Positions 18,106 through 32,689 of a DNA stretch of 36,729 nucleotides are shown in pieces (the first letter of the stretch is position 1; every line of letters starts with the position of its first letter). Source of the stretch: Gemmatimonadaceae bacterium (GTDB lineage: Bacteria > Gemmatimonadota > Gemmatimonadetes > Gemmatimonadales > Gemmatimonadaceae); NCBI GenBank assembly GCA_025928335.1, contig JAICJQ010000018.1, forward strand, positions 1-36,729. Direction: 5' to 3'. A program made the translations under genes and the position numbers. The notes under the pieces are model-generated. The model saw only the letters and a program-made list of their open reading frames with translations. It was not told the DNA's origin and searched no databases.

Positions 18106-19008
18106 ATGGCCCAGCGCCCCTTCTACGTCAGTTTCGGCTGGACCCTGCGCGACTACGCGAAGCGCGTCTGGGACAACAGCGGCGAGGATAATGTCCTCTT
18201 CCTCGCCGGGGGGATCGCGTTCAACATCATCCTCGCCGCGCTGCCGTTCATCCTTCTCCTCGCCACCGTCGTGACGTGGATCGTGCCGCATCTCTATGGC
18301 GGCTCGATCAACTCGACGGAACAGGTGGCTCAGTTCATCGACCGGCTGCTTCCGGCGCACTCCGAGGTGGATTCCCCGTACCACAAGGTGGTCAACGATC
18401 TCCTCAAGGCGCGGAGCCAGATCGGCACATACAGCGCTATCGGCTTCATATGGTTTTCGACGCGTCTTTTCGGCTCGTTGCGTACGGTGCTGGCGAGCGT
18501 GTTCGACATCGAAAGCGAACGCGGCATCATCGCCGGCAAGATCTTCGACGTGAAGATCACGATCGTGTCCACGCTGCTCTTTGTCGCCAGCGTGACGGTG
18601 ACGACGTACGTCGGTCTCGCGTCGCACGCGCTGGTGCAGATCGGGCTGCGCAACGACGCGATCAGCAGCGTCGATTACTACGTTGGACGTGTCCTCGGTT
18701 TCATTTTCATCGCGCTGATGTTTTTCGCGCTGTACAAGTACTTGCCCATTCGCCGCGTGGCGGCGAAGGCAGCGTGGGTTGCCGCGGCATTCACGAGCGT
18801 GTGCTTCGAGGCGGCGCGAACGGCGTTCAGGTATTACACCGAGACCTTCAATCCCGCGTCGCTGTACACTGGGACACTGACGGCTCTCATCGTGGTGATC
18901 GTCTGGTGCTACTATGCCGCGTTGATTTTCATCCTCGGCGGCGAGGTCGGGCAGGTGTTCGAGCTGCGGCGCGTGCGGAAGCGGCAGCGTGAGGTGTTGA
19001 CGGACTGA
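18106..19008 (+). CDS. YihY/BrkB-family integral membrane protein
   Basis: A 300-residue inner-membrane protein. Predicted membrane segments include NVLFLAGGIAFNIILAALPF with the next hydrophobic stretch (residues about 28-62), and others near 140-170, 190-215, 225-245 and 255-285. The family pattern is seen in GGIAFNIILAALPF, IGFIWFSTRLFGSLRTVL, ASVFDIE and the late YTGTLTALIVVIVWCYY with ILGGEVGQVFE. The family was once called ribonuclease BN in error; its transport or envelope role is not settled. The start has no strong ribosome site. A perfect octamer array begins just after the stop. Confidence 0.88.
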   Translation: MAQRPFYVSFGWTLRDYAKRVWDNSGEDNVLFLAGGIAFNIILAALPFILLLATVVTWIVPHLYGGSINSTEQVAQFIDRLLPAHSEVDSPYHKVVNDLLKARSQIGTYSAIGFIWFSTRLFGSLRTVLASVFDIESERGIIAGKIFDVKITIVSTLLFVASVTVTTYVGLASHALVQIGLRNDAISSVDYYVGRVLGFIFIALMFFALYKYLPIRRVAAKAAWVAAAFTSVCFEAARTAFRYYTETFNPASLYTGTLTALIVVIVWCYYAALIFILGGEVGQVFELRRVRKRQREVLTD

Positions 19009-19014
19009 CTTGGG

Positions 19015-19054
19015 CGGCTCGGCGGCTCGGCGGCTCGGCGGCTCGGCGGCGGGG
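19015..19054 (+). repeat. Octamer tandem array (CGGCTCGG x4 plus degenerate unit)
   Basis: Four identical CGGCTCGG units (19015-19046) are followed by CGGCGGGG. The array begins 7 nt after the YihY stop. It belongs to the same sequence class as the arrays at 27051 and 19444. Confidence 0.85.
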
Positions 19055-19096
19055 GTTTGCACGAGCTCGTCGCGTAGAAGTGGCCTGGCTGGCCCG

Positions 19097-22619: not shown

Positions 22620-22721
22620 GTGCCCCAGGTCCCGGAGGGCGTCAGCCTTCTAACTCCGTCAGGACCCCGAAGGTAGCAGCGGCATGAGGTGTCTGATGTT
22701 GCTTCGTCAGACCTGGGGTAC
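22620..22721 (+). ncRNA. ffs: Signal recognition particle RNA (4.5S-type, small)
   Basis: The RNA scaffold of SRP, which with Ffh targets nascent membrane proteins. The universally conserved domain IV is recognisable: GTCAGGACCCCGAAGGTAGC with the AGCAGC bulge side (about 22657-22682), closed by a tetraloop-like GAAG segment. The 5' end GTGCCCCAGGTC (22620-22631) pairs with the 3' end GACCTGGGGTAC (22710-22721, G-U allowed), giving a single hairpin RNA of about 102 nt, the Alu-less bacterial form. It is followed by a strong terminator and then dnaX, the same order (SRP RNA, dnaX, ybaB, recR) known from Bacillus subtilis. Confidence 0.93.
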
Positions 22722-26371: not shown

Positions 26372-27049
26372 ATGTCGATGATCAACTACGCCTCGCGCGA
26401 GATCAATTGCAAAATCGTGTATTACGGTCCGGGGCTCGGCGGCAAGACCACGAACCTCGAGCACGTGTACGGCAAGGTGCAGCCGGACACCCGCGGCAAG
26501 CTCATTTCACTGGCGACGGAAACGGAGCGCACGCTCTTCTTCGATTTCCTGCCGGTGGATCTGGGGACGATCCGCGGCTTCAAGACACGGTTCCACCTCT
26601 ACACCGTGCCGGGACAGGTCTACTACAACGCCAGCCGCAAGCTGATTCTGAAGGGCGTGGACGGCATCGTTTTCGTCGGTGACTCGCAGGTCGAGCGGAT
26701 GGAGGCGAACCAGGAGGCCATGCAGAACCTGTACGACAACATGGCCGAATACGGGTACGATCTCACGACCATGCCGTTCGTCATTCAGTACAACAAGCGC
26801 GATCTGCCCAACGCGGCGTCGATTCGTGAACTCCAAGCGTCGCTCAATCCCGGCTGGGAAGTCACCGAGTCGACGCGTATGCGCCCTCTGGCGGACCCTG
26901 CCCACCCCGGCGAACGGCTGATCGAACAGCTACCCACGGGCGAATGGATCGAACGGGCGCCATACTTGGAAGCCGTCGCGGTGAGCGGCGAAGGCGTCTT
27001 CGAGACCCTCAGGGCGGTCAGCAAGCTCGTTCTGAAGTCACTGGCGTAG
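26372..27049 (+). CDS. mglA: MglA-type small Ras-like GTPase
   Basis: A bacterial Ras-superfamily GTPase of 225 residues. P-loop GPGLGGKT lies at 19-26 with [15 protein letters not shown] before it, as in Myxococcus MglA. Switch II region is [18 protein letters not shown], and NKRD is the guanine-specificity motif in [10 protein letters not shown]. The last motif is SGEGVFETL. Compared with the roughly 195-residue Myxococcus protein, about 30-33 residues are inserted after NKRD, between ASLNP and PYLEAVAV, carrying [15 protein letters not shown] and PTGEWIERA. Its GAP-like partner lies just upstream. An octamer array begins immediately after the stop. Confidence 0.93.
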
Positions 27050-27050
27050 G

Positions 27051-27090
27051 CGACTGGGCGACTGGGCGGCTGGGCGACTCGGCGGCGGCG
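27051..27090 (+). repeat. Octamer tandem array (CGACTGGG class)
   Basis: Units CGACTGGG, CGACTGGG, CGGCTGGG, CGACTCGG, CGGCGGCG lie directly behind the mglA stop. The register and the ending in CGGCGG match the array behind the YihY gene at 19015. Confidence 0.8.
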
Positions 27091-29759: not shown

Positions 29760-30902
29760 ATGGCTCAGACGAAGGACTACTACTCGGTCCTCGGAGTTCC
29801 GGCGTCAGCGACGCAAGACGAGATCAAAAAGCAGTACCGTAAGCTCGCCGCGAAACACCACCCCGACAAAAATCCCAACGATCCGAAAGCCGCCGAGCGC
29901 TTCAAGGAGATCTCGGAGGCCTATCAGGTGCTGGGGGACTCCGACAAGCGGAAGCAGTACGATCAGATGCGCCAGCTCGGCGCGTTTGGTGGCTTCGGCG
30001 GAGGCGCGGGGCCGCGCCGTGGACCACCACCCGGCGCTGGAGCGCCCTTCGGCGGCAATGCGCAATCCTTTCGCTTCGAGGACCTGGGCGACGTCGGTCT
30101 CGGTGGACTCGGCGACCTTTTCAGTTCGATGTTCGGTGGCGGCGCTGCCGGTGGGCGCGGCGCGCGATCACGCGGACCGGAGCGAGGACAGGACGTCGAG
30201 TCGCAGCTGTCTATTCCGTTCCGGACGGCAGCACTGGGCGGCAAAGTGCCGATCGAGCTCGAGGTGAACGAGGAGTGCTCAACATGCCACGGTTCCGGCG
30301 CCGCGCCGGGGGCGAAGATATCGACCTGTCCGGAGTGTCAGGGGCGCGGCACGATTTCGTTCGGCCAAGGCGGGTTCGCCGTTCAGCGTCCGTGCCCGAT
30401 GTGTCTCGGCAAGGGCACGGTGCCGAGCGAGCGATGCCCGACCTGTGGCGGCTCTGGCGAAGTTCGCTCGAAGAAGAAGGTAATGATCACCGTTCCCGAA
30501 GGTGTCGACAGCGGAACGAAGATTCGTCTCAAAGGGCAGGGCGCGCGCGGCAATCGCAGCGGTCCGCCGGGCGACTTGCTGATCACCTTTCAAGTCGAGC
30601 CCGACCGGTTCTTCCGGCGTGAAGGATTGGACGTCGTCGCCCCCGTGCCGATCAACATCGCGCAGGCGACGCTCGGGTCGAAGATCAACGTCAAGACGCT
30701 GGATGGAAAGAAAGTCACGATCAAGATTCCGCCGGGCACGGCGAATGGAAAACGCTTTCGCGTTCGCGGTCAGGGGATCAAGCGTGACGATCAGCGCGGC
30801 GACTTGATCGTCGAGGTGCAGGTTCGGGTGCCGGAGAAGCTCACCGAGGAGCAGGAAAAGGCGATGAAAGAATTCGCGGAAGCTTCCGGCATGAAGTACT
30901 GA
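29760..30902 (+). CDS. dnaJ: Co-chaperone DnaJ (type I)
   Basis: A DnaK co-chaperone of 380 residues. The J domain (1-70) has [21 protein letters not shown] and the HPD motif in KHHPDKNP. A Gly/Phe-rich region (about 75-140) follows. The zinc domain has four CxxCxGxG repeats ([32 protein letters not shown]). The C-terminal substrate domains include [19 protein letters not shown]. All four zinc repeats make this a full type I DnaJ rather than a CbpA. The gene is paired with grpE and ends 13 nt before the left arm of the inverted-repeat element. Confidence 0.96.
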
Positions 30903-30915
30903 CTGCGCAGTTCGG

Positions 30916-30985
30916 ACCGCGCGGCTGCCAGAGAGCGCGGCTGCCGAAGGGCGCGGCTCCCAAACAACGCGGCTGCCGAACAACG
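30916..30985 (+). repeat. Left arm of the inverted repeat: four 16-bp tandem units
   Basis: Units start at 30919, 30935, 30951 and 30967: GCGCGGCTGCCAGAGA, GCGCGGCTGCCGAAGG, GCGCGGCTCCCAAACA, ACGCGGCTGCCGAACA. The core GCGGCT is constant. The arm begins 14 nt after the dnaJ stop. Confidence 0.9.
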
Positions 30986-31014
30986 AATGCGCTACCGACG
31001 AGGACGACGCAGAA

Positions 31015-31410
31015 TCAAGTCCCGCCGGAGTTCCGGCTATGTTCGGCCGCGGAACGTGGCTCGGCCACGTAGTTTTCACGAAGCAGTGATGAAAGCATCC
31101 TGATGATCGTCACGAGACGATTGCGTAATCGCCAATAGTCGACGCTGCTGATTCGATTCGTTTCGTAATTCGCTCGTAGGTGACGAATCGTCTCTTCCGC
31201 TTCCCCGCGGGCCACACGTAGCGAATGTTCGCGTTCTCGCCCGGGGCCGCGCCCAAATCCTTCTGCGATATTGGCAGCGATAGACTGCGCTGATCGCCTG
31301 AGCTGCTGAATGTAAATCAAACGCCGAGCATTCGAGTCGATGAGGCGATTGATTTCATCCGCTACCGAGTCCGCCGCGTCGAGTACGGCGAGGTTGCGAT
31401 GATTTGTCAT
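31015..31410 (-). CDS. Four-helix-bundle protein (S23 / 23S-rRNA intervening-sequence family)
   Basis: A 131-residue protein of the four-helix-bundle family first known from open frames in 23S rRNA intervening sequences and related to Avd of diversity-generating retroelements. The family core is clear: helix 1 (LDAADSVADEINRLID), helix 2 (LIYIQQLRRSAQSIAANIAEGFGR), helix 3 (LRVARGEAEETIRHLRAN), helix 4 (YWRLRNRLVTIIRMLSSLL). Helix 2 holds the diagnostic SIAANIAEGFGR. The C-terminal tail (AEPRSAAEHSRNSGG) is low-complexity and overlaps a DNA hairpin. Base composition is lower than the surroundings (59 of 120 bases are G or C in 31081-31200), a sign of separate origin. No reverse transcriptase or rRNA lies nearby. 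Molecular function is unknown. Confidence 0.88.
   Translation of the reverse strand: MTNHRNLAVLDAADSVADEINRLIDSNARRLIYIQQLRRSAQSIAANIAEGFGRGPGREREHSLRVARGEAEETIRHLRANYETNRISSVDYWRLRNRLVTIIRMLSSLLRENYVAEPRSAAEHSRNSGGT
31054..31070. repeat. Short perfect hairpin in the 3' end of the four-helix-bundle gene
   Basis: ACGTGGC (31054-31060) and GCCACGT (31064-31070) form a 7-bp stem with a 3-nt loop within the low-complexity C-terminal codons. Confidence 0.6.
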
Positions 31411-31494
31411 TCCCCAGCCTACCGGATGGTCAGGGAACGGACCTCACCGAAAGCACGCCCTCAGTACCGGCGCCTTCCTCGTGTAAAGCGTCTG

Positions 31495-31564
31495 CGTCGT
31501 TCGGCAGCCGCGTGGTTTGGGAGCCGCGCCTTTCGGCAGCCGCGCCCTCTGGCAGCCGCGCGGT
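31495..31564 (-). repeat. Right arm of the inverted repeat: four 16-bp tandem units
   Basis: Read on the minus strand it shows the same four units in the same order as the left arm, with four substitutions and no gaps. It ends 25 nt before the mnmA stop codon. Confidence 0.9.
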
Positions 31565-31588
31565 TCGGTTTGCGTACTTCAGCAATCT

Positions 31589-32689
31589 CTAAGCAGCGCG
31601 AACTGGCAACTGTCTCTTCCCGCTCTCGATCACTCCTCCGCCGAGCACTCGCTCTCCGTCGTATAGCACCAGCGACTGCCCGGGCGTAATCGCCGCCACT
31701 GGCTCGTCCAGCGCGAGCTCGATTTCATCGCGGTCCAACCGAACGATCAGGGCGCTGACTGTGGGCGCGCGATGGCGAACCTGGACGTCAACCGTCGACC
31801 CAACGAAAGGCGCGTCGACCAGCCAGTTCATGTGACGCGCCGTGAGGCCGCGGCCGAGCAACTCCGCGCGCGGACCAATCACGACCGCCCGATCCGCCGG
31901 TCGAATGCCGACCACAAACATCGGCTCGCGGAATCCGCCCGGTAGGCCGCGCCGCTGACCGATCGTGAACCGCGCGTGCCCGTCGTGCGCTCCGACGACC
32001 GTCCCATCCGAGAGGAGGAACGGGCCGGCGGCGAGTGAAGAGGCATCGGGGCCAAGTCGCTGGCGAATCACCTTCGTGTGATCGCCGTCCGGCACGAAGC
32101 AGATATCCTGGCTCTCGCGCTTCTCGGCGACGACTTCGAGCCCGAGGCGGTGGGCGACAGCTCGCGTTTCGGACTTGGTCTGCGCGCCGACCGGAAGAAT
32201 CATGCGATCGAGCACGCGGCGGTCGATTCCCCAAAGGAAGTACGACTGATCCTTCGCGTGGTCCAGCCCGCGATGCAGCGTGCTGTCGACGACCCGCGCG
32301 TAATGGCCCGTCGCAATCCACCGCGCGTCGATTGTGTCGGCCTTGGCGACCAGGTCGCGGAACTTCGTGAACGTGTTACAACGAACGCACGGAATCGGCG
32401 TGCGGCCTTCGGCATACTCGCGAACGAAGTCATCGACGACGTCGCGCCCGAATGCGCTCTCCAAATTCAGCACATAGTGCGGGATCCCGAGCGCGTGGCA
32501 AACGCGCCTGGCGTCGTTGACGGAGTCGAGCGAGCAGCACGGGCGGTCGGGAAGATCGCCGTCATGGCAGAACAGCTTCATCGTCGCGCCGACGACGTCG
32601 TACCCCTGCTCGACGAGCAGCGCGGCGGCGACGGAGGAATCAACTCCGCCGGACATAGCGACCAACACGCGCTCGCCGTGCATCGTCAT
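31589..32689 (-). CDS. mnmA: tRNA-specific 2-thiouridylase MnmA
   Basis: Thiolates U34 of Lys, Glu and Gln tRNAs, 366 residues. The PP-loop for ATP is SGGVDSS at 13-19. The nucleophilic cysteine is in CVRCN (C104 by position) and the persulfide cysteine in QDICFVPDG (C197). ATGHYARV and KDQSYFLWGI are typical tRNA/adenylate elements, and the C-terminal beta-barrel follows from about 250. The start ATG at 32689 shares one base with the stop of the upstream cysteine desulfurase (TGATG), so the sulfur donor and acceptor are translationally coupled. It converges on dnaJ with the inverted-repeat element between. Confidence 0.95.
   Translation of the reverse strand: MTMHGERVLVAMSGGVDSSVAAALLVEQGYDVVGATMKLFCHDGDLPDRPCCSLDSVNDARRVCHALGIPHYVLNLESAFGRDVVDDFVREYAEGRTPIPCVRCNTFTKFRDLVAKADTIDARWIATGHYARVVDSTLHRGLDHAKDQSYFLWGIDRRVLDRMILPVGAQTKSETRAVAHRLGLEVVAEKRESQDICFVPDGDHTKVIRQRLGPDASSLAAGPFLLSDGTVVGAHDGHARFTIGQRRGLPGGFREPMFVVGIRPADRAVVIGPRAELLGRGLTARHMNWLVDAPFVGSTVDVQVRHRAPTVSALIVRLDRDEIELALDEPVAAITPGQSLVLYDGERVLGGGVIESGKRQLPVRAA

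Follow-up and report, generated by a model that had tools for sequence, protein, structure and literature searches.

The locus between dnaJ and mnmA in a Gemmatimonadaceae genome raises the question of how a gene of the S23 family, the family of the 23S rRNA intervening-sequence protein (IVP), came to lie between long inverted arms outside any rRNA gene. To address this question, we analyzed the window, i.e. the whole stretch of 36,729 nucleotides (positions 1 to 36,729 of contig JAICJQ010000018.1), together with other genomes. The source genome (G000) is a MAG of 4.52 Mb that is 79% complete. Our results lead us to assign a probability of roughly 70% to the reading that the unit is a copy of a small mobile element, consisting of an S23/IVP gene between inverted tandem-repeat arrays, in which S23 itself has a part. 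That the unit is mobile appears highly probable from sequence comparison, which is all that this inference rests on.

The unit spans 669 bp and consists of a left arm (30906-31010), an S23 gene on the minus strand (31015-31410, 131 aa) and a right arm (31470-31574). It is placed between the convergent genes dnaJ (29760-30902, plus strand), whose stop lies 3 nt ahead of the left arm, and mnmA (31589-32689, minus strand). Each arm is 105 nt long, 459 nt separate the two, and 88 of the 105 positions pair. A first-pass annotation of this DNA had described arms of 70 bp matching at 66 positions, with weaker pairing further inward to 95 bp, up to 4 bp short of the enclosed stop codon. These numbers are right: we recovered the 66 matches in the best 70-nt stretch, starting at 30916, and confirmed the 4-nt spacing for the left arm. 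Both arms are built as tandem arrays of a 16-nt unit, as detected by TRF, with about four copies at 30919-30985 on the left (rows 30919-30977 and 30920-30985) and 4.7 copies at 31494-31568 on the right. The strict arm score (+1/-2/-4) of the unit was 58, and 20 dinucleotide shuffles reached at most 11. Minus-strand RNA of 30906-31574 was predicted to fold at -360.8 kcal/mol, compared with a mean of -274.1 for 20 shuffles (z -16.4). Rfam gave no match within the unit at gathering score and no rRNA anywhere in the window. The unit has one trait of a 23S rRNA intervening sequence (IVS), an S23 reading frame between inverted complementary ends, but not the expected location in an rRNA gene, since it sits between dnaJ and mnmA.

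The enclosed protein scored 69.8 bits against PF05635 (23S_rRNA_IVP; curated cut-off 33.8, E 2.8e-19) and 72.4 bits against TIGR02436 (curated cut-off 24, E 3.2e-20), which bears out its earlier assignment to the S23/IVS family. PF05635 was the sole Pfam family matched by the gene, and no Y1 (RAYT) transposase domain was found in it. The AlphaFold2 model of the monomer, a four-helix bundle, had a pLDDT of 91.2, and the 10 top rows of a Foldseek search were all chains of 2RLD or 2GSC, i.e. both solved S23 structures. The S23 protein of Xanthomonas campestris is a pentamer, according to the part of PMC4990558 available to us. As had been noted from the letters alone, the gene is lower in GC than its neighbours (56.3%, versus 63.5% for dnaJ and 65.8% for mnmA). 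The dN/dS ratio was 0.06-0.23 in 10 of 12 S23 pairs, with dS saturated in two; as judged from these ratios, the S23 protein is under purifying selection.

Among the matches listed, PF05635 occurred in 48 of 59 relatives, at up to 12 matches per genome, and was missing from all 14 control genomes. Arms with a strict score of at least 18 were found at 57 of 86 S23 sites of relatives (80 sites drawn among the matches listed), 26 of 78 sites bacteria-wide (from the best 80 of 579), 7 of 16 sites on plasmids (16 records retrieved out of 27) and 17 of 22 sites found by searching with the window protein. The remaining 29 of 86 and 52 of 78 sites fell below the threshold, none of 30 PIN genes reached it, and shuffled sequences across this test reached at most 15. 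The bacteria-wide set of 80 includes 6 Gemmatimonadetes loci, which contribute one of its 26 armed sites, and L165 and L209 are one site. Three Nostocales plasmid sites and one Azospirillum site, described below, were scored as misses because the annotated or chosen reading frames extend into the array; when re-measured, the strict scores were 27, 17 and 21 for the trio and 21 for the Azospirillum site. A looser scoring (+1/-1/-2), by which 58 of 86 S23 sites and none of 30 PIN genes reached at least 27, was dropped in favor of the strict one; the loose score depends on composition, because it gave 601 pairs on 800 kb with the GC-rich genome G020 strongly represented. Two S23 genes without arms (L086 in G001 and L099 in G004) were seen by eye at a shared rng-rplU place, with a ribonuclease G-like gene before and an L21-like gene after; these are possibly settled copies.

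A lag identity of at least 0.75 was found in 54 of 172 arms of relatives, 34 of these with a period of 7, 14 or 21, and in 37 of 156 arms bacteria-wide, 35 of these with such a period, but in none of 60 arms at PIN genes. Heptamers were the commonest arm repeat, and purines made up over half of the arm upstream of the S23 gene in 85 of 91 loose-score rows; both this count and the tree labels used below are based on loose scores. We also compared S23 genes with other genes having gaps of at least 60 nt on both sides. In this intergenic control, which is limited by few control genes and crude gene calls, 34 of 44 and 5 of 12 S23 genes reached a loose score of at least 27, compared with 0 of 9 and 0 of 19 of the others.

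Evidence for joint movement of gene and arms came from plasmids. The S23 genes on plasmids of Aulosira, Trichormus and Nostoc (L284, L286 and L290) are 79-83% identical and have similar heptamer arms. DNA homology among the three spans -37/-40 to +12/+14 of the gene and stops within the outer portion of the arms. Beyond it the flanks show no relation, save one 76-nt match of 71% far downstream in one pair. By the extent of this homology, gene and arms are shown to be able to move together. Inspection by eye of the window unit and of this trio revealed neither a target-site duplication nor a fixed terminal sequence. Other plasmid units are placed between cas6 and cas4, between nrdB and nrdA, and beside a TraM-like gene. 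On plasmid AZO_p2 of Azospirillum lipoferum, a unit with heptamer arms lies inside 23S rRNA (LSU rRNA by Rfam). The proposal of the first-pass annotation, that an IVS-type element is set between protein genes, is supported, and the Azospirillum insertion shares the plan. Some chromosomal S23 sites are old, with homologous flanks conserved between genera. As read from their flanking genes, units occupy gaps between convergent genes, gaps inside cas and other operons, and 23S rRNA. Among three cyanobacterial plasmids (L276, L285 and L281), the S23 gene is located between cas6 and cas4 in two, the cas units named above, and between cas10 and cmr3 in the third, there with weak arms (strict score 14). 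A figure legend in PMC10910872, a source available only in part, places 23S rRNA IVP among CRISPR-linked proteins, and units between cas genes could contribute to this association.

Next to joint movement, the length of the repeat ties arms to gene. In a tree of 88 S23 proteins whose genes have arms, of which 81 rows pass strict scoring, the clade of the window protein (15 rows, SH-aLRT 95) has 15-17-nt units in 14 rows, the exception being L298 with a period of 7. A 3-row clade (SH-aLRT 100) has 13-nt units throughout, and a 4-row clade of a Gemmatirosa genome (SH-aLRT 97) has units of 14, 14, 14 and 15 nt, the last at L135, a row that fails strict scoring. The remaining rows mostly have 7, as do 56 of the 88 rows overall. 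Parsimony required 11 changes of repeat length on this tree, compared with a mean of 24.7 and a minimum of 18 for shuffled labels (0 of 500 as low). When rows fetched by the window protein were left out, 9 changes were required versus 15.5 (0 of 500), and with strict rows only, 11 versus 23.4 (0 of 500). Judged by the tree, repeat length is shown to be a clade-level trait of the S23 protein, with a repeat sequence that drifts. The simplest reading would be that gene and arms are inherited together, slippage holding the length as the sequence drifts. Sequence-specific pairing of the S23 protein with its repeat found no support, as arm sequence and protein identity were not correlated in a Mantel test (0.041; 256 of 999 permutations as high).

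This independence of arm sequence from the protein is one of the points in favor of a different explanation, in which the arrays are made locally, by slippage and quasi-palindrome correction, at hairpins or terminators between genes, with the S23 genes as surviving passengers. Arrays also exist without S23 and around other genes. On 400 kb of G023, from two contigs known to have S23, there were 3 inverted pairs, each of them around an S23 gene. On 400 kb of G020, where 4 of the 20 stretches had been chosen to cover S23 genes, 4 of 15 inverted pairs enclose one. Among pairs of these two genomes scoring at least 28, 7 of 12 enclose S23; the others enclose LOR, YebC, TonB_C and PDDEXK_3 genes, with one unidentified. 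The S23-free genome G029 has one inverted pair, with a score of 71. Inverted arms were also found at 13 of 29 PDDEXK_3 genes of relatives (L370-L399), and S23 is therefore not unique in its arm plan.

The repeats at the dnaJ-mnmA site vary by genome as well, as local slippage would have it. Other genomes gave 29 mnmA loci (L057-L085), 12 of which have dnaJ alongside in the fetched stretch, and we read the gaps of these 12 by eye. The unit of the window was absent in all 12. There was almost no gap in four (L059, L062, L074 and L075), a single tandem array in L077, an inverted pair of short-repeat arrays without an enclosed gene in L057 and L063, inverted arrays enclosing unrelated reading frames in L061 and L064, and other sequence without evident arrays in L071 and L072. 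In L066, a different S23 gene (34% identity) lies between arrays of another repeat. On this reading of the gaps, the site is a place of recurring arrays. Local slippage alone does not account for the tracking of S23 clade by repeat length, nor for arms that travelled with the gene in the Nostocales plasmids. Array density is a further argument against it. There were 39 arrays in 51,031 bp beside S23 genes versus 11 in 354,399 bp farther off at the same loci, and bacteria-wide 34 in 46,804 bp near S23 genes versus 13 in 314,452 bp farther off, whereas PIN genes had none in 18,000 bp near and 8 in 67,384 bp far. We therefore consider this explanation unlikely, though it cannot be set aside.

The mobile element with an S23 gene, our preferred reading, is also supported by dispersed repeats in the source genome. 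Of 10 PF05635 matches in G000, 8 are above the cut-off; arms of at least 18 (strict) were found at 6 of 7 scored S23 genes, and the eighth, at a contig end (C126), scored 17 on a short stretch. A whole-genome search with the arm, as the first-pass annotation had suggested, revealed its repeat on six other contigs (C220, C153, C138, C268, C28 and C65), as inverted pairs or lone arrays, and also on a seventh (C99). None of the six contigs has a PF05635 match. Beyond this genome, 17 solo arrays were found in stretches of G010, G011, G024 and G035, and none in those of G005, G009 and G023. A 12-mer was shared with S23 flanks of the same genome by 13 of the 17, compared with 7 of 510 comparisons with other genomes (Fisher p 5e-18; the comparisons are not all independent), and the other 4 matched no S23 flank among those compared. 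On the evidence of these shared 12-mers, gene-less arrays with the repeats of the arms are shown to be dispersed in several of the same genomes. We also counted 2 arrays in 399 kb from 6 genomes without S23 versus 17 in 800 kb from 7 genomes rich in it (p 0.024), a contrast that is weak because it is uneven, three of the latter having none. Tandem-array arms, a repeat length that tracks the protein clade and dispersed gene-less arrays go beyond what the first-pass annotation had proposed.

Gene-less copies and inverted ends would also be expected of a MITE-like unit that is moved by a transposase encoded elsewhere, with S23 as cargo or helper, and the copies on C138 and C153 indeed have a common core (80% over about 221 bp). 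However, repeat sequences vary from copy to copy even in one genome, including between the S23 genes of G000, unlike the ends recognized by a transposase, and the lack of a visible target duplication, which was judged by eye and not systematically, also speaks against this explanation. We regard it as improbable, although a transposase acting in trans remains possible.

A retroelement, in which S23 would act like the Avd protein of diversity-generating retroelements and pass the hairpin RNA to a reverse transcriptase, is very improbable. In its favor, PF05635 resembles Avd according to the available part of PMC10053308, and Avd is likewise a four-helix bundle; Avd (4DWL) came after the S23 chains in the Foldseek search, with 4DWL and 8UB7 as weak matches (E 0.17), and a hairpin RNA is predicted here too. 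However, RVT_1 was found in only 12 of 59 genomes and was absent from G000 (79% complete), G009, G010, G011, G020, G023 and G035, each of which has 8-12 PF05635 matches. Reverse transcriptase as a requirement was ruled out by this absence from several S23-rich genomes, and an RVT_1-type enzyme seems not to be needed.

An ordinary gene, fixed in place and accompanied by a stem-loop of terminator type, is suggested by the position between two convergent stops and by some short copies of the repeat pair that surround a terminator-like hairpin (by eye). This explanation is scarcely credible and is refuted as a full account because the unit is absent in sister genomes, while a terminator side effect is not excluded. 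The first-pass annotation would have accepted such a gene if the arms occurred only here and the unit were conserved in position across the phylum, which fails because the arm repeat recurs and 12 genomes lack the unit. From these genomes it also follows that the unit is not ancestral at the site as it stands. In addition, S23 relatives at 60% identity are located elsewhere (C86 in G004 and C7:40139 in G005, where mnmA sits at C57 and C7:212453, respectively), and the repeats are dispersed.

Our interpretation is a mobile, transposase-less repeat system whose gene is S23; its mechanism, including RNase III cutting, is inferred. The arms may fold into a long hairpin, either in RNA, where RNase III would cut it as in known IVSs, or in DNA that becomes single-stranded during replication. 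Putatively a pentameric ring by homology with 2GSC, the S23 protein might bind the hairpin of the repeat. Host replication or repair could then copy units and arrays to new sites, via the hairpin or template switching, without an enzyme of the element's own. Slippage and arm-to-arm correction may preserve the length of the repeat and the mirror symmetry of the arms despite changes in sequence. Copying through a DNA hairpin with S23 as binding factor is a tentative proposal, well below even odds, for which there are no expression or binding data.

In REP/REPIN systems with a RAYT transposase, short repeats scattered over a genome match the ends that surround a low-copy gene. The system described here likewise has dispersed repeats that match the ends of a gene-bearing unit in the same genome, but S23 forms a four-helix bundle and is no Y1 transposase, and each locus has its own sequence in the tandem arrays of its arms. 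Among the closest known systems are the 23S rRNA IVSs, e.g. that of Coxiella burnetii. As described in the accessible portion of PMC4990558, its 23S IVS has an S23 reading frame between complementary ends, a 28-bp stem, and tandem heptamers (GACAGAT) upstream of the frame, two or three by strain, and it is cut by RNase III. Heptamers thus occur both in this IVS and in the arms of the Azospirillum IVS, and by analogy the Coxiella heptamers and RNase III cutting would fit the same unit inside rRNA. The window unit differs in lying between protein genes, in its arms of about 105 nt made of a 16-nt repeat and in its dispersed gene-less repeats; RNase III cutting, demonstrated for IVSs, is only inferred for it. 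According to the discussion in PMC4990558, IVSs have been known for a long time, but there is no agreement on their function or on how they move.

The heptamer repeats of bacteria present a second puzzle. Those of cyanobacteria are the STRR repeats. Heptamers have been described in Xanthomonas (GGGAATC) and Nostoc (GGGGA(C/T)T) (PMC4692102, in part) and in Beggiatoaceae (TAACTGA; PMC4679880). Heptanucleotides are reported to rank first in abundance among the classes of long simple repeats in most genomes, and a guess about the polymerase footprint is the only explanation offered (PMC4679880). Like our arrays, these are intergenic, degenerate and in some cases inverted, but here the arrays bracket S23 genes and repeat length is tied to S23 clade. 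The available portions of PMC4692102 and PMC4679880 contain no mention of S23 or four helix, and among the matches listed in the open-access literature (subscription journals were outside the scope) nothing linked S23 genes with inverted heptamer arrays. We put forward, as a conjecture only slightly short of even odds, that orphan S23 genes, 23S rRNA IVSs and many unexplained heptamer repeats form one bacteria-wide, S23-driven, transposase-free family, in which the repeat length (7, 13, 14 or 15-17 nt) would be determined by the S23 clade and hairpins of inverted arrays would spread, with PDDEXK_3 genes maybe a second system in parallel. Joint movement, clade-specific repeat length and shared solo arrays would connect the IVS and heptamer puzzles and make both testable. 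If true, this would add a mobile element without a recognized transposase or reverse transcriptase.

Several further observations were made. The PDDEXK_3 loci, whose genes we take to be GxxExxY-type, are dispersed, with up to 9 matches per genome, and some of their arms are cacagag-like, with a repeat period that is not firm. PDDEXK_3 was rejected as a necessary partner of S23: G009, G011, G023 and G035 have 8-12 PF05635 matches and, among the matches listed, no PDDEXK_3. Another recurrent array site is yebC, where inverted arrays of differing repeats were seen at L011 (C268 of G000) and L364 (G020). At L135 (G020), the repeat array enters the S23 reading frame and appears as a repetitive C-terminal tail. 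A 23S rRNA match was not found in the incomplete source MAG. Within the window, an octamer array (GGCGACTG, 4.5 copies, 27049-27084) lies directly after a stop codon, with no partner seen, and another (GGCGGCTC, 19005-19060), also directly after a stop codon, has 12-mers in common with the S23 arm of C126. Finally, the window carries a bacterial small SRP RNA (RF00169) at 22624-22720.
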